Positions 2,997-17,208 of a stretch of DNA of 29,870 bases are shown here, piece after piece; positions within the stretch are counted from its first letter, which is position 1; the number at the start of each line of letters is the position of its first letter. Location: positions 1 through 29,870 of the IMG/VR virus record IMGVR_UViG_3300021197_001730. One strand, written 5' to 3'. The DNA comes from a virus. The notes beneath the pieces were generated by a model that was not told where the DNA came from, made no database searches, and saw nothing but the letters and a program-made list of their open reading frames with translations. A program made the translations under genes and the position numbers.

Positions 2997-4871
2997 CTAT
3001 GCAATCTCACAGGCGCCTGCACTACAGGACAGCTCCTGAGAGGCAGTTGTTTCATCATCTTCTTCTATCATCTGATCCCAATCAATTTCTGTTGGCATTT
3101 TAGTTAGAAATTCTTCATATTCTTCTTTGCTGCACTCATTATACGGTGCTTGGCGATACGAACCGCCATCATAGGGCAAGAAGGATATGCCTGAGATGTC
3201 ATCAAAATTGTTCCATACATAAGCACCAACTTGAGGCCACTCAGTTTCTTTTACAGACACAGTAATACTTGGCTTGTGCTCACACCAGTACTCTTGATAT
3301 ATCTGCCAAAGCTTAAGATGGTCTATGGCTGTCATATCATCTCTTGTCACACAATTATCTGGTGATTTAACTGGAAATGAAAATACTGTTGTAGTGTCAC
3401 CTTTCATAACGCAAGGTTCGTTAGGCACACCTTTGTCTATCATAAACTGAGTTAGTGGGTCTTTGTTGTCTCCACGAACAGTGCGAATATAATATTTACT
3501 ATGTCTAGCGTGAATACCACTAGCTGAGTTAACTAGTTGTGATACTGTTCCGCTAGGCTTTACACATGTTATTGCAGCACTTGGTTCTATATCTAGCTTT
3601 GCAGCCATATACTGGTTTGCTTCTACTGCACGAACCCTGAGATCACTTAATAATTCTGGAAGTGTCTCAGTGTCTCTCATTAATACATTGTCCAATATGC
3701 CTGTAAGCGAGACACCCAGTAATCGTTCTTGTTCTGTATTAGTTTGCCAGATACGTCGTAAGTATGGAAAGTGTGTAAAGGTCGATTGTATAGTGCCGAT
3801 GATACTAGCGACCGCAACTTTTTCCATAAGGGTATCTTTAGTATCTTTTTCACGGACGATGACCTCGGTAAGGTTGCAGAACTGGTACGGACGTAAGATG
3901 ATCTCACTGCATGGATTAGTGCCAAACTGAAACTCATTATTTCTCTTTCCGTATTTTGCTGCCATCTTTTGTGATGCTTGCCGATTAAAAATTCCTCTTT
4001 CACCACTATGACTTTCGTATAGTGCTGACCATTCTCTCATAAAAGCGCCTACGTCAGGCTTTTCTGTGTAGCAGACACTATTGTTAGCCAAAGCTCGTTG
4101 TGGGTTTTCTCTCCACCACTCACCTGACTTTGCGTGTCTCATCCTGTCATCAGTTAAGTTTGACAGGCTGATCATTGCAGACCGTCTTACTCCACCGACA
4201 ACAACAATCTCACCTATTTTGCACATGAGGTCATGACACTCTATAGATGATAGCTTGCGCCCTTCGGCTGCTTTAAAAGTATTTATTGTAAATCTGAATA
4301 AGTCGTCTAATGGTGCTGGACCAGAAGCACGACCACCAAATTTACGTAGTCTTGCGCCTGCAGGTCTTACTTTGCTCATGTCCCACTCAGGGATTTCGCC
4401 TGCATATAACAGTGCTATTAGCATTCTAAAGGCTTTAGACCAGCCTTCTTTACTGTCGCTGACTACTATTGTTGTATTAGATTTGTATAGCTTCTCAGGT
4501 ATCTCAGGAAGCTTGTTTATATATTGTCTTTCTACACTGAAGCCGACACCTGTACCACACATCAGTATGAACATAGCTTCGTCAAATGACTTAGGATCAT
4601 CTGCAACTATATAGCTGCAGTTATAGCCACATGTGTTGTCTCTTGCTAGGGCAACACCAGCAGTCATTAAAGCACGCATTGATGGCATGACTTCTTTTTT
4701 GATGATAGCTTCTCTTATTATATTGAGGTTTTCTTCACCAATGTTAGGTCGTTGTTCAGCAATAAAATCGACAAATCGTTGCACTGTTTCTTCCCAGTGC
4801 TCTCGTCTATTTATATTGTCTTTGTATCTCGCATAACGAGATTTATGTATAAATTCTTCATATAGGTTCAT
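2997..4871 (-). CDS. nrdJ: Class II (adenosylcobalamin-dependent) ribonucleotide reductase
   Basis: Reduces ribonucleotides to deoxyribonucleotides using a radical made from coenzyme B12, supplying precursors for phage DNA synthesis without oxygen or a second subunit. The 624 residues resemble the monomeric Lactobacillus-type enzyme. NPCSEI (Cys321, Glu323) and FCNL (Cys332) match the thiyl-radical and redox cysteines. Cys81 or Cys85 (TCGYNCSYI) is the likely N-terminal redox partner, and the last nine residues contain the CxxxxC shuttle pair (Cys616, Cys621). CVKPSGT (436-442) is the usual substrate-loop signature. Transcription probably starts from the T7-like site at 4945-4962. The host must make or import B12. 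Confidence 0.93.
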   Translation of the reverse strand: MNLYEEFIHKSRYARYKDNINRREHWEETVQRFVDFIAEQRPNIGEENLNIIREAIIKKEVMPSMRALMTAGVALARDNTCGYNCSYIVADDPKSFDEAMFILMCGTGVGFSVERQYINKLPEIPEKLYKSNTTIVVSDSKEGWSKAFRMLIALLYAGEIPEWDMSKVRPAGARLRKFGGRASGPAPLDDLFRFTINTFKAAEGRKLSSIECHDLMCKIGEIVVVGGVRRSAMISLSNLTDDRMRHAKSGEWWRENPQRALANNSVCYTEKPDVGAFMREWSALYESHSGERGIFNRQASQKMAAKYGKRNNEFQFGTNPCSEIILRPYQFCNLTEVIVREKDTKDTLMEKVAVASIIGTIQSTFTHFPYLRRIWQTNTEQERLLGVSLTGILDNVLMRDTETLPELLSDLRVRAVEANQYMAAKLDIEPSAAITCVKPSGTVSQLVNSASGIHARHSKYYIRTVRGDNKDPLTQFMIDKGVPNEPCVMKGDTTTVFSFPVKSPDNCVTRDDMTAIDHLKLWQIYQEYWCEHKPSITVSVKETEWPQVGAYVWNNFDDISGISFLPYDGGSYRQAPYNECSKEEYEEFLTKMPTEIDWDQMIEEDDETTASQELSCSAGACEIA

Positions 4872-8188: not shown

Positions 8189-9802
8189 TTAAAACGGAAT
8201 TTCATCAAAGACTTCTTCCGATAATCTGCCAGTGTCATTGTTCCATTTGAGTGTGCTGCAAGCACCTGTCTCACCTGTGAACCTGTTTTTGACTACTCTG
8301 ACAGTGGTTTTGTTTTTATCTTCACTTTGCTGATCTCGCTCTAAGCCAATTACCATGTCACTTAACTGACCAATGCTATGGCTGCCGCGAAGTGAATTTA
8401 GTGATACTTGCAGACCGTCTTCAAAGCCTTTATTGCCTTCTGGTCTGCGCAAGTGTGATACTAATAGAAGACCAATACCTGTTTCTTCCACTAGTGTTCT
8501 TAATCTTGTCATGCAGACATCCAGCGCTTTACGCTCATCCGCAATGTCCAAGCCACTGATAAGAATGCTAATATGGTCAAGTATAATCCAAGAACACTCG
8601 AGTCCCCGGGCCAAGTAGCGTATTCTGTTAATGATATTGTCGACAGCAACGCTGCCAAAACTATCGTACAAATATACGCTATTATTGCCAAATAAACTGT
8701 TGAACGCAGTACGTAGCTCAGCAGTTTTAATATCTTTAGCATCAATATGAATTGCTTTGTTAAGCTCAATGCCAATAAGACCGAGCGCACTTCGTTTAAC
8801 ATTTTCTTCAAGGGCAATATAACCAACAGTTTCACCTGACTTTATTAAGTGGTGAGCGCACTCACGTACAAAAGCTGATTTACCTATTCCGGAACCTGCT
8901 GTTACTGTGACTAATTCACCCTTGCGCATACCTCTTGTTTTTGTATTGAGTCCTGCAAAAGGGTAAAGTATGGCAGACGCTGTCTCCTGCTTGCTCACCA
9001 CTTCCCATAAATCTTTGGCTGCAATAATACCGTCAGGACGATACTGTTTTGCTTGCCAGACAGCGGTAACTAATTCTTTAGTTCTGCCTTTTATCAGCAT
9101 TTCATTTGCGTCTTTTAAAGGCAGTTGTGCTATATGAGCTTTCCCAGGCTCAAGCAATTCTGCACAGCTCACTGCTGCATCTTGACCTGGTTTATCAGTG
9201 TCAAAACAAAACACAACTTCATCAAAATTTTGAAGCCACTCTAGTTCTCTTTTAACAACCTTAGGAGCACTTTGTGCACCTTGTGGCACTGATACTACTG
9301 GCCACTTGTTACCAAGCGCTTGAGATAATGAAAGTGCATCTATTTCACCTTCAACTACAAATACTCTTTTGCCTTTATTTTGCAGCCATTGGCCGAAAAA
9401 TGGCAAGCTAGAGCCATCTCCTATAATTCTAAATTGTTTATTTTTATCTCTTGATTTAAGAGCAAGCAGCTCACCATTTCTGTAATAAGGTGCTAACTGA
9501 CACGTTTCATTTACTTTATATCCAAAGTGTCTTGCCGTGTCTGCTGTAATCCCTCTTGATCTGAGTGCTTGTATTTCTGCTTGCGCGTATATAATGTCCG
9601 CTTCCGTATTACTCTTTGCCTGTACTTCGGTGAACGGACTTCCTTCGCTAGATAATTCCTCTTCATTTGCTTCTCCGTAGGTTTCGCACGAAAAGCAATA
9701 AGTATGTCCATCATCATACAAAGAATTAGCGTCACTGCTCCCACACTTCTCGCATGGTAGGTGAGCCATAAATGTCGTTGAGGAAGCCTGTGTTGTTTGC
9801 AT
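8189..9802 (-). CDS. T7 gp4-like primase-helicase
   Basis: A bifunctional replication protein (537 aa) that unwinds DNA as a hexamer and makes primers. The N-terminal zinc finger has four Cys (17, 20, 36, 39; CEKC and CFSC). The TOPRIM primase domain shows VFVVEGEIDALSL and CFDTDKPGQDAA. The RecA-like helicase domain shows Walker A GSGIGKS, Walker B SWIILDHISI, a SLNSLRGSHSIGQLSD segment, and VVKNRFTGETG with the likely arginine finger. The ATG at 9802 has GGAG 11 bases before it. The internal ATG at 9769 keeps the zinc finger but has no binding site. It overlaps the MazG-like gene by 71 bases. Confidence 0.95.
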   Translation of the reverse strand: MQTTQASSTTFMAHLPCEKCGSSDANSLYDDGHTYCFSCETYGEANEEELSSEGSPFTEVQAKSNTEADIIYAQAEIQALRSRGITADTARHFGYKVNETCQLAPYYRNGELLALKSRDKNKQFRIIGDGSSLPFFGQWLQNKGKRVFVVEGEIDALSLSQALGNKWPVVSVPQGAQSAPKVVKRELEWLQNFDEVVFCFDTDKPGQDAAVSCAELLEPGKAHIAQLPLKDANEMLIKGRTKELVTAVWQAKQYRPDGIIAAKDLWEVVSKQETASAILYPFAGLNTKTRGMRKGELVTVTAGSGIGKSAFVRECAHHLIKSGETVGYIALEENVKRSALGLIGIELNKAIHIDAKDIKTAELRTAFNSLFGNNSVYLYDSFGSVAVDNIINRIRYLARGLECSWIILDHISILISGLDIADERKALDVCMTRLRTLVEETGIGLLLVSHLRRPEGNKGFEDGLQVSLNSLRGSHSIGQLSDMVIGLERDQQSEDKNKTTVRVVKNRFTGETGACSTLKWNNDTGRLSEEVFDEIPF

Positions 9803-10148
9803 GATCTGGTGCTCTCCAATCTTTTGGTTTAATTAAATCCCATCCTTCACTTTGTTCACGACCAGGCTTAACGCCTCTCTCTTTGGCCATATTTGCAAAG
9901 TGAACTTCATCCCATGCTTCTTGAATATCGACACCAGCTATTGCTAATGTTCCAAGTGCAAACACAGTTAAATCAATCAGTGCGTCTACTATGCCTTCGG
10001 CATCGCCTTGATTAACTGCTTCCCCAAATTCAGATAATTCCTCTTCTATTTGCTCACCTCTAAATCGTAATTTTTGTATGTCTAAAGGTTCGTGATTAAA
10101 TCCGTATTTTGCTTGTAAAGTATAAATGTCGCCTACAATACTTGACAT
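9732..10148 (-). CDS. MazG-like nucleotide pyrophosphohydrolase
   Basis: An all-alpha NTP pyrophosphatase, 138 aa, which would split a (d)NTP into the monophosphate and pyrophosphate. The metal-binding pattern is complete: RGEQIEEELSEFGEA gives the ExxEE set and GIVDALIDLTVF the ExxD-type pair. The tail contains WDEVHFANMAK and KPKDWRAPDH, usual for the short phage forms. AAGGAG gives the start. Family members include dCTP-specific enzymes. Beside a dCMP-hydroxymethylase-like gene and a dNMP kinase, a dCTPase role is attractive but inferred; other phage MazG proteins prefer dGTP and dCTP or have been linked to (p)ppGpp. Confidence 0.88.
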   Translation of the reverse strand: MSSIVGDIYTLQAKYGFNHEPLDIQKLRFRGEQIEEELSEFGEAVNQGDAEGIVDALIDLTVFALGTLAIAGVDIQEAWDEVHFANMAKERGVKPGREQSEGWDLIKPKDWRAPDHANNTGFLNDIYGSPTMREVWEQ

Positions 10149-10297
10149 TTGTGCTCCTTTAATTCGAATATGTGGTAATTTGTATCTGTGCCATATGTGG
10201 CTGAGTGATAGCCACGCTTAAACAAATTGCGCCTTATAAGCTCGCGCTCTAAGCGCCAGTCTTTGCGTGCTTTGTCTCTTACAAAAAGTGCTTTCAT
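10133..10297 (-). CDS. Small basic hypothetical protein (54 aa)
   Basis: A short gene filling the space between the kinase and the MazG-like gene. It starts at an ATGA overlap with the kinase stop and ends 15 bases into the MazG gene, whose ribosome binding site it contains. The N-terminal half is strongly basic and helical (RDKARKDWRLERELIRRNLF); the C-terminal half (GYHSATYGTDTNYHIFELKE) looks beta-rich. I do not recognise the family. Coupling to the kinase and MazG genes suggests a role in the same nucleotide pathway or simply compact packing. Confidence 0.7.
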   Translation of the reverse strand: MKALFVRDKARKDWRLERELIRRNLFKRGYHSATYGTDTNYHIFELKEHKCQVL

Positions 10298-10788
10298 TTT
10301 TCCACAACCGTTTTTACAAATTCATCCACATCTGTTTTTTCGTAGTCATATGGGATGTAATTTCCATAGCCATCTTCCAGCACGAGTTCATCAAACTTGT
10401 TTAGTACTGGCTCAACATCATCAAACATCTCATTTCTTGTTTGTTTAGAAATTTCGTGCTGTTTAATTGCTGCTTTGGTAGTGGCTAAAATAAAAAGTGG
10501 ATTATAAGCTTTTGTAGCTTCTTTAATTAATGCTTTAATGTCGTATGAAGGACCATTTCGAAACACTTTGCCATAAGCTGCTTCACTTAAAGCCCATCTG
10601 TCTATAACACATGGAATATTAGCACTTTGCTCTAACTTACCTGCTGTGTGTAGCATCAGTCTATGGTAGGTTTCCATGTTCCAATCTTTTGCATAACTAC
10701 AATGAAAATATTGTCCTTTCATTGCTTCACAAAACTTTTTGGCAAGTGTTGTTTTGCCTGTGCAATCTGCACCATCTATAATAATCAT
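10294..10788 (-). CDS. P-loop deoxynucleoside monophosphate kinase
   Basis: A kinase of the thymidylate/dNMP kinase class (164 aa), which would phosphorylate a dNMP to the dNDP. Walker A is DGADCTGKTTLAKK near residues 5-18, VIDRWALSEAAYG holds the DRW/LID-adjacent motif seen in dTMP kinases, and a KQTRNEMFDD segment is the probable lid. It is shorter than bacterial Tmk (about 210 aa). The ATG directly follows the TAA of the 56-residue gene, with only a weak site (TGGTTTTAA), so translation is coupled. The neighbouring ThyA-family gene suggests that its product is the substrate, as with T4 gp1 and hydroxymethyl-dCMP; this is inference. Confidence 0.85.
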   Translation of the reverse strand: MIIIDGADCTGKTTLAKKFCEAMKGQYFHCSYAKDWNMETYHRLMLHTAGKLEQSANIPCVIDRWALSEAAYGKVFRNGPSYDIKALIKEATKAYNPLFILATTKAAIKQHEISKQTRNEMFDDVEPVLNKFDELVLEDGYGNYIPYDYEKTDVDEFVKTVVEK

Positions 10789-10959
10789 TTAAAACCAACC
10801 CAAGTTCACTCCGTTGTGAACTATAATAAAAAAGCAGGCAGTTAAATGCGCTGCAATCCATATGATTTTTCCTAATGCTAAAGCGAACACACCAATTATA
10901 TTCATTGCAGGAATATACGCTTCTCTCTTACTTCCTAAATATCCTGGAACGTGCTTCAT
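10789..10959 (-). CDS. Small membrane protein (56 aa)
   Basis: A short gene between the ThyA-family gene and the kinase, filling the gap exactly. It starts with an ATGA overlap at the ThyA stop, with GAGG 8 bases upstream, and its TAA touches the kinase ATG. After a basic N-terminus (MKHVPGYLGSKREAY) it is hydrophobic from about residue 16 to 48, enough for one or two membrane spans, ending HNGVNLGWF. Function not recognised. Why a membrane protein sits between two nucleotide enzymes is not evident. Confidence 0.7.
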   Translation of the reverse strand: MKHVPGYLGSKREAYIPAMNIIGVFALALGKIIWIAAHLTACFFIIVHNGVNLGWF

Positions 10960-11744
10960 GCTGCTGCCTCATTTTTCTTGTAATGATCAGCAAGAACCTC
11001 AAGCTTTTTAACGTAAACATCAGGATCGTCTGTGTCACACACCATTGTCACATATGAAGAATTTACCAAGCCATCTACTGCTCTATTTTCTAGCCAGTAA
11101 TCAACTTGATCGAAGTGCTTTTCATAAATATGTAATGAGTTTGCTCTTACGTGCAGAGCACCTAAATCAACTCCTACTTTTCTGTGTTTCCACAAGAACA
11201 ATTGCATGTATTTTGCAATAGCTGAGAAAGTAAACATGTCGTAAGGTGTTCCCCACACAACATCTTGGCTTCTCATGTTTACTAATAAAAATAATTTACC
11301 GTCTCTTATAAGAAACTGCATGCCAGTTGTGCATGGTATATCTTTGGAAGGATAAGGGCGTTCACGCCATATATTAATGTATGCTCTTCTACTGTCATTA
11401 TCGTAGGCTAGCTCTGTAGCTGCCCAACTGATTTGATCCATTATTTTGGGACCGTAAGCTCCATTAAGTGTGGCATAGTCATCACTAAAATTAGCGTATG
11501 ACGACATGTAATTTTCAATATATTTTAAATCATTTCTTCCTTGTAAAATCCAAGCTGCCTCTGCAAACATAAAGCTGTAATTAAGGTTTCTAGCTATATG
11601 CCCAACAACTGGGTTCGACATGTCGACATGATAATTATATGCTATGACTTCTTTTACTTTTTGGTTTCTTGGCTCTACTTCAAATCTGTTTCGCTTGTAA
11701 ACAACATCTATAAGATGTGCCCACGTGATGTCTGCTGAAATCAT
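10956..11744 (-). CDS. ThyA-family enzyme, probable dCMP hydroxymethylase
   Basis: A folate-dependent pyrimidine methylase or hydroxymethylase (262 aa). Family residues are present: Arg119-Arg120 (DSRRAYINIW), catalytic Cys138 (IPCTT), Arg158 and Asp161 (NMRSQDVVWG), His205 and Tyr207 (SLHIYEKH). Thymidylate synthase has Asn (E. coli Asn177) in the PFN motif to select dUMP. Here the motif is TPYDM, giving Asp169, as in T4 dCMP hydroxymethylase, and the NMRSxDVVxG and SLHxYxxHFxxVDxW strings also recall T4 gp42. The likely reaction is dCMP plus formaldehyde equivalent to hydroxymethyl-dCMP. Methylation of dCMP is the main alternative. AGGAG sets the start. Confidence 0.82.
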   Translation of the reverse strand: MISADITWAHLIDVVYKRNRFEVEPRNQKVKEVIAYNYHVDMSNPVVGHIARNLNYSFMFAEAAWILQGRNDLKYIENYMSSYANFSDDYATLNGAYGPKIMDQISWAATELAYDNDSRRAYINIWRERPYPSKDIPCTTGMQFLIRDGKLFLLVNMRSQDVVWGTPYDMFTFSAIAKYMQLFLWKHRKVGVDLGALHVRANSLHIYEKHFDQVDYWLENRAVDGLVNSSYVTMVCDTDDPDVYVKKLEVLADHYKKNEAAA

Positions 11745-11788: not shown

Positions 11789-12007
11789 TTAGTTAGCTTG
11801 CTTGTAGTGCGGCTTGCCTAGATAGTACTCGGTATACTTTGTACCTCTTGTGTCTACCTTTTGGTTTTTCTTAATATTAAGACCTTTGCTGGTAAGCGCA
11901 CTAATAGTAGCTGTGAGGTTTTGCAAATCAAACTCATGCATAGCAACTATGCGTGTAATTTTTTTGCCTTTTTTCATATGTTCAATGAGTCGTGCTCTTT
12001 TCGTCAT
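11789..12007 (-). CDS. Small helix-turn-helix protein (72 aa)
   Basis: A short winged-helix-type protein common in phages. The MTKRARLIEHMKKGKKITRI start and the IVAMHEFDLQNLTATISALT helices, then a LNIKKNQKVDTRGTKYTEYY wing, fit a DNA-binding domain that reads a small recognition helix. No role has been assigned to it in its relatives that I can recall. AGGAG upstream fixes the ATG at 12007, which lies inside the endonuclease gene (26-base overlap). Its last codons may hold a weak phage promoter. Confidence 0.78.
   Translation of the reverse strand: MTKRARLIEHMKKGKKITRIVAMHEFDLQNLTATISALTSKGLNIKKNQKVDTRGTKYTEYYLGKPHYKQAN
11798..11818 (-). promoter_or_regulatory. Weak candidate phage promoter
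   Basis: The minus strand reads GGCAAGCCGCACTACAAGC near the end of the HTH gene. It shares GCCGCACTA with the two stronger phage promoters, and 9 of 17 T7 promoter positions match, but +1 would be A and the upstream half is poor. If real it would drive the ThyA-family, kinase and MazG genes through the UUCG hairpin. Confidence 0.3.
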
Positions 12008-12398
12008 TTAACCACTCTCCTGGGATTAATTTATCTGCATACATAAAACCGTATTTGTCACACCAATTTGCATAACTTGTTTTACTTCCTTTATTGATTT
12101 TAGAGCTGCTTCTGCTGAAGACGAACCTTATGTCTAGGTCTGGGTTTTGTTGTTTTACCAACCTCATTTTGCGTCTGTCTTCGCTAGTAAATCTGCCCTT
12201 GCATTCAACAATAATTCCGTTATCAAGCAAGAAATCTGGTATGTATTTAGCGTCAATTTGATATGGCACTTTTAATTTTTCATAAGAAAATACAATATCG
12301 GCTTCTAACAATTGTTGAGCTACCGCAGCTTCTAATCCACTGCGGTAACCATTTTCAAACTTAATATGTTTAAAAGTCGAAGCTGTTGCTCTCGGCAT
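11982..12398 (-). CDS. T7 gp3-like endonuclease I (Holliday junction resolvase)
   Basis: Resolves branched DNA and helps degrade host DNA. With the ATG at 12398 (AGGA upstream), the 138-residue protein has Glu23, Asp55, Glu65 and Lys67, essentially the catalytic positions of T7 gp3 (Glu20, Asp55, Glu65, Lys67), in YRSGLE, YIPDFLL and GIIVECKG. The C-terminal part SKTSYANWCDKYGFMYADKL followed by IPGEWL also matches T7. A longer frame from 12512 runs through the ssDNA-binding gene in another frame and is unlikely. The gene order after gp2.5 is as in T7. Confidence 0.93.
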   Translation of the reverse strand: MPRATASTFKHIKFENGYRSGLEAAVAQQLLEADIVFSYEKLKVPYQIDAKYIPDFLLDNGIIVECKGRFTSEDRRKMRLVKQQNPDLDIRFVFSRSSSKINKGSKTSYANWCDKYGFMYADKLIPGEWLNDEKSTTH

Positions 12399-12888
12399 TA
12401 GTTTCTTTTCCTGATGAGGTGTGAACGTAACCACCATCTTCTGCTTCAAAGTTGTTGCCCCCAAATTCAACGAGATCGATGATTTGTACGGCATTGAGGT
12501 ACATAGTAACACCAGTGTTACCTCCTGCGTTGTAAGTAGACATGATGCCTGATAGTTTTAAAACAGAGCCATTGCCTACATTTAAATCTTCTGGAATGAC
12601 TGTTCCTGCTCCATCGTATAATACTGGCTTTTTGCTAGACTTAGCGCGAAAGCGGACTGCACCACTTTCTTCTTCGATCTCAAAAGGCCATTTAGCCTTT
12701 TTCAAACTTTTTTCACCAAATTCCTCCACGAAAAGTTCTTTCGCTTTGGTCATTAAATCTTCAGCTTCTGCCTTTGCTACTAGCAAGTCAGTTTTAAATT
12801 TGCCTTCAGTATCAAATCGTGTATCTGGCACTGCAAGCCAAGGCCAAAGTGCTGTGCCTTTGGGTGTAACAAATCTAAATTTGCTCAT
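12370..12888 (-). CDS. T7 gp2.5-like single-stranded DNA-binding protein
   Basis: Coats single-stranded DNA and coordinates polymerase and helicase. It is shorter (172 aa) than T7 gp2.5 (232) but keeps its layout: an early GTALWPWLAVPDTRF segment, an OB-fold core with VRFRAKSSKKPVLYDGAG and VLKLSGIMSTYNAGGNTGVT, LVEFGGNNFEAEDGGYV near the end, and a terminal SNSFDF. The final Phe after acidic residues is the known contact to polymerase and helicase in T7, although the acidic tail here is short. AGGAG sets the start at 12888. Confidence 0.9.
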   Translation of the reverse strand: MSKFRFVTPKGTALWPWLAVPDTRFDTEGKFKTDLLVAKAEAEDLMTKAKELFVEEFGEKSLKKAKWPFEIEEESGAVRFRAKSSKKPVLYDGAGTVIPEDLNVGNGSVLKLSGIMSTYNAGGNTGVTMYLNAVQIIDLVEFGGNNFEAEDGGYVHTSSGKETNAESNSFDF

Positions 12889-13085: not shown

Positions 13086-15581
13086 TTAAGCGAATGCGTA
13101 GTCGCTTGAGATTATGTCTTGTAAGTTAAATTTGCCTTTTTCAGGCAGCTCTACTAGGTCAATTCTTTTTTTGTCCGACAATGTAGAGTACGTTGCATTA
13201 TATAATCTTTGTACAACATCGAATATTGTGTACATGGCAACAAATTGTTCTCGTATTAAATAACCAAACTTTTTTGTCTCACATGCGTGAGTGGCAAAGC
13301 TGTCATGAATTAACATGTAATCTGTTATGCCTTCTTCTAATCCGGCTAATACACTGAACATTAAATGACTTGCGTCTAAACTGTGTATAAAATTAGGTGC
13401 AGCAGCGTTGCGTTGCTTCATTTTGTCTAGAGTTCCTTTAGGTCTAGACCTCAAATTCAGCATGATGCAGTTATACACATCATTATTTTTTGTTATTCTG
13501 CTGTTTTTACTTGCTTCACTAGGGCTAATTGCCTTGTCGTAAAGAAATATTCTAACTCTATTTATATGAAAATCTTCATAGGCATGCACAACTGGCAAAC
13601 CTATTGGTGATGTCCATATTAAAGGTTTTGCTTCATGAGCACATAGTTGTGCACATTTTTGAATAAAACGCATGCCTTCCGCAGCTTTGGTAACAGTGTC
13701 GTTAACAGCAACCCATACTTTATTTGCTAAGTACGTTGCAGCTTTTGAACCATTATCTTCGCCTAATGGATGGCTGTCTCTTATTCCTTCTAATACTTCA
13801 TCTTCTAACGGCTTCATCAAATCTTCCATGAGCTGTTGTCTAAATCCATATTTTTCACTTGAATAAGCAAATGTCATCACATTGCGTTTTACTGTCTTTC
13901 TAGTAACACCATACTTTTTCCATAGCATTGCTAAGTCATCAGTATCGTGTTGCAGTTCTTCATTAACTTTGTCGGCAACTATTTGGTAGACATCCGCTGG
14001 CTTACTTGCTGGAACAAGATTAACAGTAGCACCACCTTTTTCGTCTCTTAAAGCAGCACTATAATGTTGTACACCTGAATTAGCACCATCCATTGCAGGT
14101 GGTATAAAACAAATGTAATCTTCGCCCTCTTCTGCATATCCAGCAAAGGCATTACAAGCTGCAAGAAATGAAAATGGTTTGTCAGCTTTATGCCAATACT
14201 TGCGAGTTAAGCCTGGTTTGCGACCAATTAAATAAAGAAGTCTTTGGTTATCATTGACCCATTTTATTCTGTCATCCAAAGATTTTTTGCTTACTTTATC
14301 AAAGTCACCAGTATTTGCGACATGAATACATAACCAATAAGCACCATCGCTTCCTAATCGTTTGCCATTTGCAAACTGAAATAGTGCACGAATATGATCA
14401 CTTCTTTGGTGGTTGAATGTGGGTATTGGATAAACTCTTCCTCTAAAATCTAAGTTGTGAGGCAAGTAAAACTTCTCATGTTTTGCAAGTTCATCTGCAA
14501 TATTTAAGTCAGTTGTCATGTTGACTAAATCAGCATCAAAAGCTCTATTACGAAGAATAATTTTTTCTTTCGTCTTTTTAATATGCTTTCTTTGATTTGT
14601 GTCTAGCTCTTCCCAATTGTCAGTATTTTTAGGCACCTTCAATTTAACTTTTTTGGGAAATTTGCTTATAACAAAATCATTTTGCCAAGCTGCTTTTACC
14701 TCTGCTAAAACTGTTGTGTTAATAGCAAACGGTGTTGCTTGTATTGCATTAAGTGCTTTGCAAATGCGCTGCATAGAGTTTGACTTAAAAGCAGAATTAA
14801 TTAATTCTTTTTGCTTCTTGTTTACTCTTCGAACTAGTGGCACCAAACTCGCTAATTGCTTGTTGTGGTAACAACCAGAATTGAAGGCAGTCCATGGCAC
14901 TGGCTTTTCCAACATTGGTTTGAAAATAGGAGACATCCAGCTTATTTCGCCTGTAAGCTCTTCTACTAGTTTGCTTCCAATTTCTGATAATCCTAAGTTT
15001 TTAACAAAGAACTTTTTTCTTGGTCTGTCGTAAACTTCAAAAAGTTCACTACCTACCATCACACAATTCAATACAGCACCGCCGACATTTACTAACTGCT
15101 CTGTTGTCCATCTTTCTACAGAATGACCTTCACGGCTAGCTACTGCTGACATTGCTTTAAGTCTGTGTTTTGGTGAGTTGTGGTTTTTTCTAGCCATTTC
15201 AAAAAGTCTTTTAAATAGCTTTGGATTAGTTTCTTCAAAATTTTGTGCCCATAATTCGACACAAATTTGTTTACCTATGTTGTTGCATATATTCGTCAAA
15301 TCAGTACATTGGCCGACGCCAATAAATGCGTAATTTAAACCAATATAAGCAATAGTGTGTTTATTGAGGTTATTTAATGCTTGATACCAGAACGGCCTAC
15401 TTGTGATTAATTTAGTCTGTTCTAGTTCTGATGTTAATGCTTCTACTACAAGTGGAAGTGCACCTTTTACAAGCTTTGTATCTACTGTTCCCAGTATGCC
15501 TGTCTTTGTTAAATTTTCTTCCTGTTGATTAAATCTTTCTACGCCCTCTTGGAGCATATTAAATTCATTCAAAGAATTCAT
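13086..15581 (-). CDS. T7-type single-subunit RNA polymerase
   Basis: The phage transcriptase (831 aa; T7 has 883), which would transcribe phage genes from its own promoters. The catalytic residues are present: Asp498 (PPAMDGANSG), Lys565 and Tyr573 (KRNVMTFAYSS), and Asp760 (MLIHDSFAT). PHNLDFRGRVYPIP and APNFIHSLDASHL are signature stretches, and the protein ends DYAFA as T7 ends DFAFA. The specificity loop should be near residues 701-725. AGGAGG just upstream picks the ATG at 15581 rather than 15599. A T7-like promoter at 15604-15621 starts a 23-base leader, so the enzyme probably transcribes its own gene. Confidence 0.97.
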   Translation of the reverse strand: MNSLNEFNMLQEGVERFNQQEENLTKTGILGTVDTKLVKGALPLVVEALTSELEQTKLITSRPFWYQALNNLNKHTIAYIGLNYAFIGVGQCTDLTNICNNIGKQICVELWAQNFEETNPKLFKRLFEMARKNHNSPKHRLKAMSAVASREGHSVERWTTEQLVNVGGAVLNCVMVGSELFEVYDRPRKKFFVKNLGLSEIGSKLVEELTGEISWMSPIFKPMLEKPVPWTAFNSGCYHNKQLASLVPLVRRVNKKQKELINSAFKSNSMQRICKALNAIQATPFAINTTVLAEVKAAWQNDFVISKFPKKVKLKVPKNTDNWEELDTNQRKHIKKTKEKIILRNRAFDADLVNMTTDLNIADELAKHEKFYLPHNLDFRGRVYPIPTFNHQRSDHIRALFQFANGKRLGSDGAYWLCIHVANTGDFDKVSKKSLDDRIKWVNDNQRLLYLIGRKPGLTRKYWHKADKPFSFLAACNAFAGYAEEGEDYICFIPPAMDGANSGVQHYSAALRDEKGGATVNLVPASKPADVYQIVADKVNEELQHDTDDLAMLWKKYGVTRKTVKRNVMTFAYSSEKYGFRQQLMEDLMKPLEDEVLEGIRDSHPLGEDNGSKAATYLANKVWVAVNDTVTKAAEGMRFIQKCAQLCAHEAKPLIWTSPIGLPVVHAYEDFHINRVRIFLYDKAISPSEASKNSRITKNNDVYNCIMLNLRSRPKGTLDKMKQRNAAAPNFIHSLDASHLMFSVLAGLEEGITDYMLIHDSFATHACETKKFGYLIREQFVAMYTIFDVVQRLYNATYSTLSDKKRIDLVELPEKGKFNLQDIISSDYAFA

Positions 15582-15603
15582 TAAGCCTCCTGTACTCAAT
15601 CTG

Positions 15604-16268: not shown

Positions 16269-16379
16269 AAAAAGACGCCACGCAAAGCTGTAGATTTGCA
16301 GCTGGATAGAGCACTAGACTACGAATCTAGGGGTCAGGAGTTCGAATCTTCTCGAGCGCGCCATTTATGGCGTCTTTTT
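16269..16379. repeat. 12-bp inverted repeats enclosing the attachment site
   Basis: AAAAAGACGCCA (16269-16280) and TGGCGTCTTTTT (16368-16379) are perfect inverted copies either side of the tRNA-like segment. On the plus strand the right copy also forms a CGCCA-TTTA-TGGCG hairpin before TCTTTTT, a local terminator. On the minus strand the left copy gives GGCGTCTTTTT, which may end integrase transcripts. Confidence 0.75.
16298..16363 (+). other. attP: attP: 3' part of tRNA-Arg(ACG)
   Basis: From CAGCTGGATAGAGCAC to GCGCGCCA the sequence is the 3' 66 or so bases of a bacterial tRNA-Arg. The anticodon arm is CTAGA-CTACGAA-TCTAG (anticodon ACG), the T arm AGGAG-TTCGAAT-CTTCT, then the 3' acceptor strand CGAGCGC, G and CCA. 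The 5' acceptor strand (GCGCTCG would be needed) and the 5' half of the D stem are missing, so it is not a working tRNA gene. It starts 20 bases from the integrase stop. Integration here would rebuild the host tRNA 3' end. Confidence 0.88.
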
Positions 16380-16383
16380 GTCA

Positions 16384-17208
16384 TTAAGTATTGACTGCTT
16401 CTAGCAGGTCTTGGTCATCAATATGAGCATAACGCAGCGTTGTGGTTATGTTTGAGTGACCTAATAATCTCTGCACCATAGCAATATTTTTTGTTTTTCT
16501 TAGTAAACGAGTTGCCGTCGTGTGGCGCAGCGTGTGAAGAACAAATTGTTCATCATGTGCTAATCCCATGTCATCTCTTACCTTAGCCCAAAATCTGTGA
16601 ACTTGGTGTTTTCTTATTTTAAATGGGACATATTTATTTACTAAGTCTCTAGCTCGTGGAGTAAGTGGAACAGACCTAGCTTTGCCTGTTTTAGTTTTCC
16701 ACAACCTGACCCAATCTCCATCAATATTATCTTGAGTGAGATCTAATAGCTCTCCACGCCTCATACCTGTGTCTATAAGTATGGCTGTGATAGCTAGCAT
16801 TTCTTCTCTATGTTTTCTTGCTATCAAGTATTCACACTTGTTTATAGCCTCGAATACTTTGTCCTCTTCGTCAGGAGAAAGCCAACGAACACGGTGTGGT
16901 GCTGGTCGTCGATGTGAAAAGTAAGGAAGTTTGTCAATTAAATCACGTTGCTTTGCATGCTTAAGTAGCGTGCTCAGTACACTCACATTATGATTTAATG
17001 TCTGTGCTGCAAGTGGCTTGCCGCGATGCGATTTTAATTCAGATAATCTTTCAATTAAATAATCAACCATTGCTGTGTCGATGTCTTTAATATCTGGATT
17101 ATCTAATATATTGATAATTCTACGAGCTTGAGAGTGAAATGTTTTACACCCTGCTTTATGCTCCCAAATTTTCATGCCTGCTTTGTCAAGCAGTTCACTA
17201 AGTTTCAT
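16384..17208 (-). CDS. int: Tyrosine-recombinase integrase
   Basis: Site-specific integrase (274 aa) that would insert the phage at a host tRNA-Arg gene. The catalytic set is complete: Arg150 (TGMRRGELL), Lys173 (KTKTGKARSVPL), His225 and Arg228 (HTLRHTTA), His251 (LLGHSNITTT) and nucleophile Tyr260 (LRYAHI). The N-terminal 100 residues form the core-binding SAM-like domain. The protein is short, so a separate arm-binding domain seems missing or tiny. AGGAG upstream fixes the start. The gene ends 20 bases from the attP copy, and a terminator lies directly before it, so it is probably expressed separately from the lysis genes. Confidence 0.95.
   Translation of the reverse strand: MKLSELLDKAGMKIWEHKAGCKTFHSQARRIINILDNPDIKDIDTAMVDYLIERLSELKSHRGKPLAAQTLNHNVSVLSTLLKHAKQRDLIDKLPYFSHRRPAPHRVRWLSPDEEDKVFEAINKCEYLIARKHREEMLAITAILIDTGMRRGELLDLTQDNIDGDWVRLWKTKTGKARSVPLTPRARDLVNKYVPFKIRKHQVHRFWAKVRDDMGLAHDEQFVLHTLRHTTATRLLRKTKNIAMVQRLLGHSNITTTLRYAHIDDQDLLEAVNT

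Follow-up and report, generated by a model that had tools for sequence, protein, structure and literature searches.

A predicted cytosine-hydroxymethylation cassette between genes 3 and 4 of an integrase-bearing T7-like phage

The IMG/VR virus record IMGVR_UViG_3300021197_001730 (positions 1-29,870, the whole of which is called the window here) encodes a marine T7-like phage that also bears a tyrosine integrase. Three clustered genes in this window encode a thymidylate synthase (TS) homologue, a nucleoside monophosphate (NMP) kinase and a nucleoside triphosphate (NTP) pyrophosphohydrolase. Judged from their residues and by analogy with T4, these genes probably form a cytosine-replacement cassette, by which virion cytosine would become 5-hydroxymethylcytosine (5hmC). 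The sequence-only reading had reported the three open reading frames (ORFs) as a cluster, and all of them were found on the minus strand, between the following neighbours.

8189..9802, minus strand: T7 gene 4-like primase-helicase, the downstream cassette boundary, overlapping the 3' end of the pyrophosphatase gene
9732..10148, minus strand: PRA-PH/MazG-like all-alpha NTP pyrophosphohydrolase, 138 aa, predicted dCTPase (PF01503, 7.6e-12)
10294..10788, minus strand: P-loop NMP kinase with the thymidylate-kinase/YorR fold, 164 aa, predicted 5-hydroxymethyl-dCMP kinase (AAA_28/phrog_761, 1.7e-10)
10956..11744, minus strand: TS-superfamily enzyme, 262 aa, predicted deoxycytidine monophosphate (dCMP) 5-hydroxymethylase (PF00303, 2e-21); key residues E62, R119, D135, C138, T139, S159, D161, G165, D169, H205 and Y207
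11789..12007, minus strand: small HTH_39 protein (winged helix), encoded next to the cassette on its endonuclease I side
11982..12512, minus strand: T7 gene 3-like endonuclease I, the upstream cassette boundary

Base selection by the TS homologue

The TS homologue was aligned with T4 gp42, SPO1 gp29 and E. coli ThyA by MAFFT. Asp169 falls on ThyA Asn177, where T4 gp42 has Asp179 and SPO1 gp29 has Asn, while Thr139 falls on ThyA His147 (Thr149 in T4, Asn in SPO1 gp29) and Cys138 on the catalytic Cys (Cys146 in ThyA, Cys148 in T4). The sequence-only reading had placed Asp169 at the site where thymidylate synthases select deoxyuridine monophosphate (dUMP) by an Asn, had noted a residue other than His after the catalytic Cys, and had proposed such an alignment as a check; both residue assignments held, and Asp169 stays on the Asn177 site. 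The D169/T139 pair is invariant in all members of the phage clade that cover the site (IMG/VR and named phages), indicating that it is not a chance substitution. In the MetaGPA study (eLife 2021; PMC8670742), the same two positions are the best at telling TS homologues of modified-cytosine contigs apart from the homologues in unmodified ones, and PF01503 accompanies the TS domain in modified-cytosine contigs. The substrate of the TS homologue is very probably dCMP.

Among solved proteins, MilA, a CMP hydroxymethylase, comes closest (E 3.4e-23; 2e-9 for T4 gp42), and the profile of the TS homologue family scores 149 bits with MilA, 89 bits with the best thymidylate synthase, 66 bits with the hydroxylase and 64 bits with T4 gp42. 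The close resemblance to T4 gp42 that had been claimed holds for two stretches (NMRSQDVVWG in the window and NMRSNDVVFG in gp42; SLHIYEKHFDQVDYW and SLHVYSRHFYLVDHW), but the nearest solved relative is MilA and the overall identity with gp42 is about 25-28%. An AlphaFold model (predicted local distance difference test, pLDDT, 93) gives Z-scores of 23-28 to chains of the TS fold, with MilA as the best match (Z 28, 2.2 A over about 247 residues) and thymidylate synthases at Z of about 24, and the C138, E62, D161 and Y207 expected of the fold are present. In MilA, Lys133 and Ala176 replace the Arg and Ser of deoxyribose-specific enzymes, leading to a preference for CMP (PMC5175136). Arg119 and Ser159 of the window match the deoxyribose pair, and the class of MilA-type CMP hydroxymethylases was rejected for this enzyme. 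In a superfamily tree, the deep order of T4 gp42, MilA, SPO1 gp29 and ThyA is not resolved (long branches), and the lineage is therefore argued from residues.

Conservation of the cassette

The three genes and the winged-helix gene are flanked by the genes for endonuclease I (T7 gene 3) and for primase-helicase (gene 4). The same gene order was found in L001-L009, L033 and L106 wherever the contig covers the region, and L010 contains the enzyme and the pyrophosphatase. All three genes also exist, in a different order, in unrelated phages (L013, L025, AXL3, PW916 and others). We then summarized 69 loci chosen by primase-helicase alone, each with an intact interval from SSB (single-stranded DNA-binding protein)/endonuclease I to the primase, ignoring relatedness among the loci. 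All three genes are present in 3 of 69 loci (interval 1.7-2.0 kb), no locus has just one or two of them, and 66 of 69 contain none, with an interval mostly below 0.9 kb and of 2.4 kb in one case. Both the conserved clustering in relatives and this all-or-none occurrence support the three-gene pathway. In L020 (9740-12416) and in L021, two TS-like genes lie near each other, and in the first of them the catalytic Glu is replaced by Asn and the active-site Tyr by His.

The metal-site residues of the pyrophosphatase (E36, E37, E40, D55 and D59) are invariant in 14 aligned sequences. The model of the kinase (pLDDT 93) finds its best fold matches in YorR and thymidylate kinases (Z 14-16). T4 gp1 is not among the matches listed, and homology to gp1 may still exist. 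The kinase had been read as the T4-like phosphorylation step; a P-loop kinase is indeed there, but its fold is that of thymidylate kinases and YorR, and nothing was found that links it to T4 gp1. By analogy with T4, 5-hydroxymethyl-dCMP (hm-dCMP) and dCTP would be the substrates of the kinase and the pyrophosphatase, respectively.

Palindrome avoidance and restriction

When cytosine is modified, restriction sites containing C need no avoidance. For 6-bp palindromes, observed numbers were divided by those expected from the 4-mer core (O/E), and T7-like phages carrying the cassette were set against those lacking it, in an exploratory test devised after a smaller first table had already shown a difference. 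The pooled O/E of GC-containing palindromes is 0.81 in phages with the cassette vs 0.58 in those without it (Mann-Whitney p 3e-5), and 0.90 in the window, while that of AT-only palindromes does not differ (0.89 vs 0.91). Other phages having Asp-type enzymes reach 0.87 for GC-containing palindromes, and the nearest cassette-free relatives, on short contigs, are at 0.20 (L035) and 0.45 (L034). In phylogenetic regression (phylogenetic generalized least squares on the primase tree, with the phage S28C10 counted as carrier), the effect is +0.27 (standard error 0.11, p 0.02). Among SAR11 phages of the same hosts, HTVC119P is at 0.77 vs 0.29-0.67 (0.66 and 0.67 in two phages without the gene), and HTVC200P is at 0.68 vs 0.38; the differences are in the expected direction, with small margins. 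This signature supports modified cytosine, not a particular kind of it. GC-containing palindromes are very strongly avoided (O/E 0.25-0.47), and AT-only ones mostly not, in L039, L041, L050, L068 and pelagiphage HTVC121P (L147), none of which has the cassette.

A published phenotype comes from the Stenotrophomonas phage AXL3, whose gp28-gp29-gp30 include a kinase and a pyrophosphatase of the same PHROGs as in the window, and whose TS homologue falls in the window's clade in one tree (99/99) and is unresolved in another. AXL3 DNA resists 35 of 37 restriction enzymes and is cut by two with A/T-only sites; its authors suspected modified G or C, yet read gp28 as a thymidylate synthase (PMC7504290). 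Protection of virion DNA from restriction, which the sequence-only reading had proposed, thus finds indirect support in the relaxed palindrome avoidance and in the AXL3 phenotype.

Cultured SAR11 phages and S28C10

HTVC200P (L023, L144) and HTVC119P (L030, L143) are cultured Pelagibacter phages (Votkovvirus) with integrases. Their gene 3-4 slot contains a kinase and an enzyme with the D/T pair, which are annotated as hypothetical protein and thymidylate synthase. Slot, kinase, Asp-type enzyme and integrase are common to these phages and the window, but the kinase precedes the enzyme and no PRA-PH pyrophosphatase gene was found in the whole records of the two phages.

In another Votkovvirus, S28C10 (L151:31557-33578, AP013540), the same slot includes a pyrophosphatase, a kinase, a TS homologue and a dCMP deaminase. 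This TS homologue groups with ThyA (100/99); its selecting site (177) is Asp, position 147 is Cys, and Val occupies the -3 site (three residues ahead of the catalytic Cys). The enzyme resembles a ThyA that has become a dCMP methylase, in what is likely a methylase cassette of separate descent. A T7-like relative (L036) carries at 8477-9541, after the DNA polymerase gene, an SPO1-like TS homologue with Asn/Asn at the two diagnostic positions and Asp at -3, and its sequence suggests that there may be a 5-hydroxymethyluracil phage among T7-like phages.

Proposed pathway and alternative explanations

The observed gene order, residues, conservation, all-or-none occurrence and genome signature lead us to propose substrates, product, degree of replacement and protection as follows. 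With methylene-tetrahydrofolate, the TS homologue would convert dCMP into hm-dCMP, in which Asp169 would select cytosine, Cys138 would attack C6, Glu62 would activate the folate and Asp135 would activate the water added to the exocyclic methylene. The kinase would begin the phosphorylation of hm-dCMP towards hm-dCTP, while the PRA-PH pyrophosphatase would turn dCTP into dCMP, so that a competitor is removed and substrate is supplied. The T7-like polymerase would then put 5hmC in place of most or all cytosine of the virion DNA, and host restriction enzymes with C in their site would be blocked. Substantial replacement of cytosine in the virion DNA of the window's clade has a good chance of being real. 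The hydroxymethylcytosine pathway of the sequence-only reading is partly supported: dCMP is well supported as substrate, the clustered, all-or-none trio supports the three steps, hydroxymethylation fits the active site best, and the substrates and product remain predictions.

The study of the T4 gp42 ternary complex (PMC6400193) gives two residues as the signature of hydroxymethylation, namely an Asp at -3 from the catalytic Cys and a Ser located two positions ahead of the active-site Tyr. Asp135 stands at -3 of Cys138 and is invariant across the TS homologue family; the site is Asp in T4 gp42, MilA and SPO1 gp29, and Leu in ThyA. The window enzyme, MilA and SPO1 gp29 also have a PR-G loop in common, and all three lack the Trp83 of ThyA. 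This active site makes hydroxymethylation, not methylation or hydroxylation, likely as the reaction of the TS homologue.

The main rival is a dCMP methylase, in which the methylene intermediate would be reduced to 5-methyl-dCMP and the virion would contain 5-methylcytosine as in phage Xp12. PMC8670742 cites that a single Asn-to-Asp change makes ThyA a dCMP methylase, the slot in S28C10 holds just such a ThyA-lineage, methylase-like Asp177 enzyme with Val at -3, and relaxed palindrome avoidance and AXL3 resistance fit 5-methylcytosine and 5hmC equally. With an invariant Asp135 where ThyA has Leu, and with the loop of the hydroxymethylases MilA and SPO1 gp29, a methylase is nevertheless unlikely in the window.

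An Asp-type enzyme acting on dCMP might also serve partial or regulatory substitution, or nucleotide salvage, with no protection of the virion. HTVC119P and HTVC200P, which are without the pyrophosphatase and show a modest palindrome effect (0.77 and 0.68, with same-host phages at 0.29-0.67), would fit such a role. Against it, every phage of the window's clade has the pyrophosphatase and palindromes there come close to neutrality (0.90 in the window); we give this explanation a small chance.

If the enzymes were an ordinary thymidylate synthase and thymidylate kinase, as their database labels and the kinase fold suggest, the cluster would raise the supply of dTTP. This is very improbable: the whole clade has lost both Asn177 and His147 (Asp and Thr stand in their place, as in D169/T139), and the score against the NCBIfam thymidylate synthase equivalog is 59 bits with a cut-off of 327 bits; membership of ThyA was rejected on both grounds. 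Moreover, ThyX is carried by three relatives having the Asp-type enzyme, indicating that the latter is not needed there for dTMP, and ordinary thymidylate synthesis explains neither the pairing with a pyrophosphatase nor why C-containing sites are less avoided.

A third, newly recognised activity of the superfamily, dCMP 5-hydroxylation, is known from RB69 and phage HY126 (9iqc/9iqu; PMC13390438). A flavin-dependent 5-hydroxy-dCMP synthase of this kind, giving 5-hydroxycytosine, is homologous and shares the Asp of the 177 site as well as the Thr that follows the Cys (PMC13390438), but it is the least probable of these explanations and its class was rejected: the window keeps the folate-site Asp161 and Gly165 as well as Tyr207, where Asn, Val and Phe stand both in the RB69 enzyme and in 9iqc, a solved enzyme nearly identical to it, no sugar-transfer genes were found near the cassette, and MilA is far closer by family profile (149 vs 66 bits).

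Several points weigh against a hydroxymethylation cassette with full replacement. The residue equivalent to T4 Ser94 is Gly95 in the window; because MilA has Gly and SPO1 gp29 has Ala at this site, proven hydroxymethylases manage without the Ser, but the strict T4 gp42 subfamily, in which Ser or Thr stands two positions ahead of the active-site Tyr, was rejected and the window enzyme is not classed as an orthologue of gp42. Neither a glycosyltransferase nor any other enzyme for 5hmC decoration is recognisable in the window or in its closest 41-kb relative, where several small ORFs are without family, and a missing decoration enzyme would expose 5hmC to type IV restriction. The window itself is a 29.9-kb fragment. 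As for the palindromes, the effect is smaller after phylogenetic correction, some cassette-free phages reach an O/E of 0.84, the hosts differ and there are few independent origins. Full replacement is doubtful in HTVC119P and HTVC200P, in which the pyrophosphatase was not found. The AXL3 phenotype is weakened as support by an extra methyltransferase and a dCMP deaminase in that phage.

Phage type and integrase

Besides the cassette, the following features were annotated.

2997..4871, minus strand: B12-dependent, RTPR-like ribonucleotide reductase (phrog_367)
13086..15599, minus strand: single-subunit T7-like RNA polymerase (phrog_414, 1.7e-207)
16293..16364, plus strand: tRNA-Arg(ACG) fragment (D arm through 3' end), a putative core of attP
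16384..17208, minus strand: tyrosine integrase (phrog_1, 2e-45)

The T7-like phage is encoded on the minus strand, with RNA polymerase, SSB, endonuclease I, primase-helicase, DNA polymerase, exonuclease and the tyrosine integrase; portal, scaffold and capsid genes were assigned from position and from relatives. A single-subunit RNA polymerase and the T7 order of SSB, endonuclease I, primase-helicase, DNA polymerase and exonuclease place it in Autographiviridae. The ribonucleotide reductase could feed the dNTP pool. A series of small ORFs at 223-2580 on the plus strand runs opposite to the remaining genes and has no Pfam match above cut-off and no PHROG; three of them have weak counterparts in the closest relative, G006.

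The tRNA-Arg(ACG) fragment adjoins the integrase, is 97% conserved beside the integrases of L001, L003 and L033, and looks like an attP in a tRNA gene; it is flanked by an inverted repeat (AAAAAGACGCCA and TGGCGTCTTTTT). Of 398 Pseudomonadota genomes sampled, 349 contain a match to it (97% at best, in one genome), and host identification by this tRNA was rejected as not specific. A scan of genome contigs for the enzyme gave four loci, none of them T7-like, and integration was not seen in it. The description as a T7-like temperate phage is thus borne out in its T7-like gene set, while its temperate part is drawn from the integrase and the attP-like fragment, with no lysogen seen. As the host would replicate the prophage without the products of the cassette, we infer that the prophage carries plain cytosine.

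Significance

T7-like phages are usually thought to counter restriction by site avoidance and enzyme blocking, not by base change, and marine phage papers take the genes described here for thymidylate synthesis. The genotype is already known from MetaGPA and its parts from T4. New are the integrase-bearing T7-like setting, including the cultured HTVC119P and HTVC200P, and the all-or-none cassette between genes 3 and 4. The signature in palindromes and what looks like a change of enzyme type in S28C10 are new as well. In the open-access literature searched, we found no report of the cassette in T7-like integrase-bearing phages.

A wider proposal is put forward only tentatively, as one with less than an even chance. 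In widespread marine integrase-bearing T7-like phages, including those of SAR11, virion cytosine would be wholly 5hmC or a derivative and the prophage unmodified, so that the base would mark lytic versus lysogenic DNA; and, in addition, exchange of the key enzyme at one slot, hydroxymethylase for ThyA-derived methylase or the reverse, would have left related phages with different cytosine modifications. If true, whole-genome cytosine modification would extend to integrase-bearing T7-like phages, among them cultured SAR11 phages in which it is directly testable. The recovery of such phages would be affected in methods relying on restriction, enzymatic conversion or amplification, and the question would arise how the unmodified prophage of a lysogen yields modified virion DNA. 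S28C10 suggests that the type of modification is swappable via replacement of one gene.

Comparison with known systems

Unlike the window, AXL3 is a siphovirus described as virulent, with another gene order, an extra methyltransferase, a dCMP deaminase and ThyX. MetaGPA contigs agree with the window in the two diagnostic positions and in the PF01503 pyrophosphatase family, but many of them add a carbamoyltransferase or a deaminase, neither of which is in the window, and we came across neither T7-like nor integrase-bearing phages in the accessible MetaGPA text. MilA, from mildiomycin biosynthesis, shares with the window enzyme the Asp, the Thr, the -3 Asp and the Gly at the Ser94 site, and differs in the Lys133/Ala176 pair selecting ribose (Arg119/Ser159 in the window). 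SPO1 gp29, a dUMP hydroxymethylase, shares the hydroxymethylase branch and the -3 Asp, but has Asn both at the base-selecting site and after the Cys.

The hydroxymethylcytosine route of T4 consists of genes 42, 1 and 56 (dCMP hydroxymethylase, kinase and dCTPase). The window differs from T4 by the YorR/thymidylate-kinase fold of its kinase, Gly at the Ser94 site, no glucosyltransferase found, and its T7-like genome with an integrase; it resembles gp42, gp1 and gp56 in the Asp at the base-selecting site, the -3 Asp, the Thr after the Cys and the same three predicted steps.

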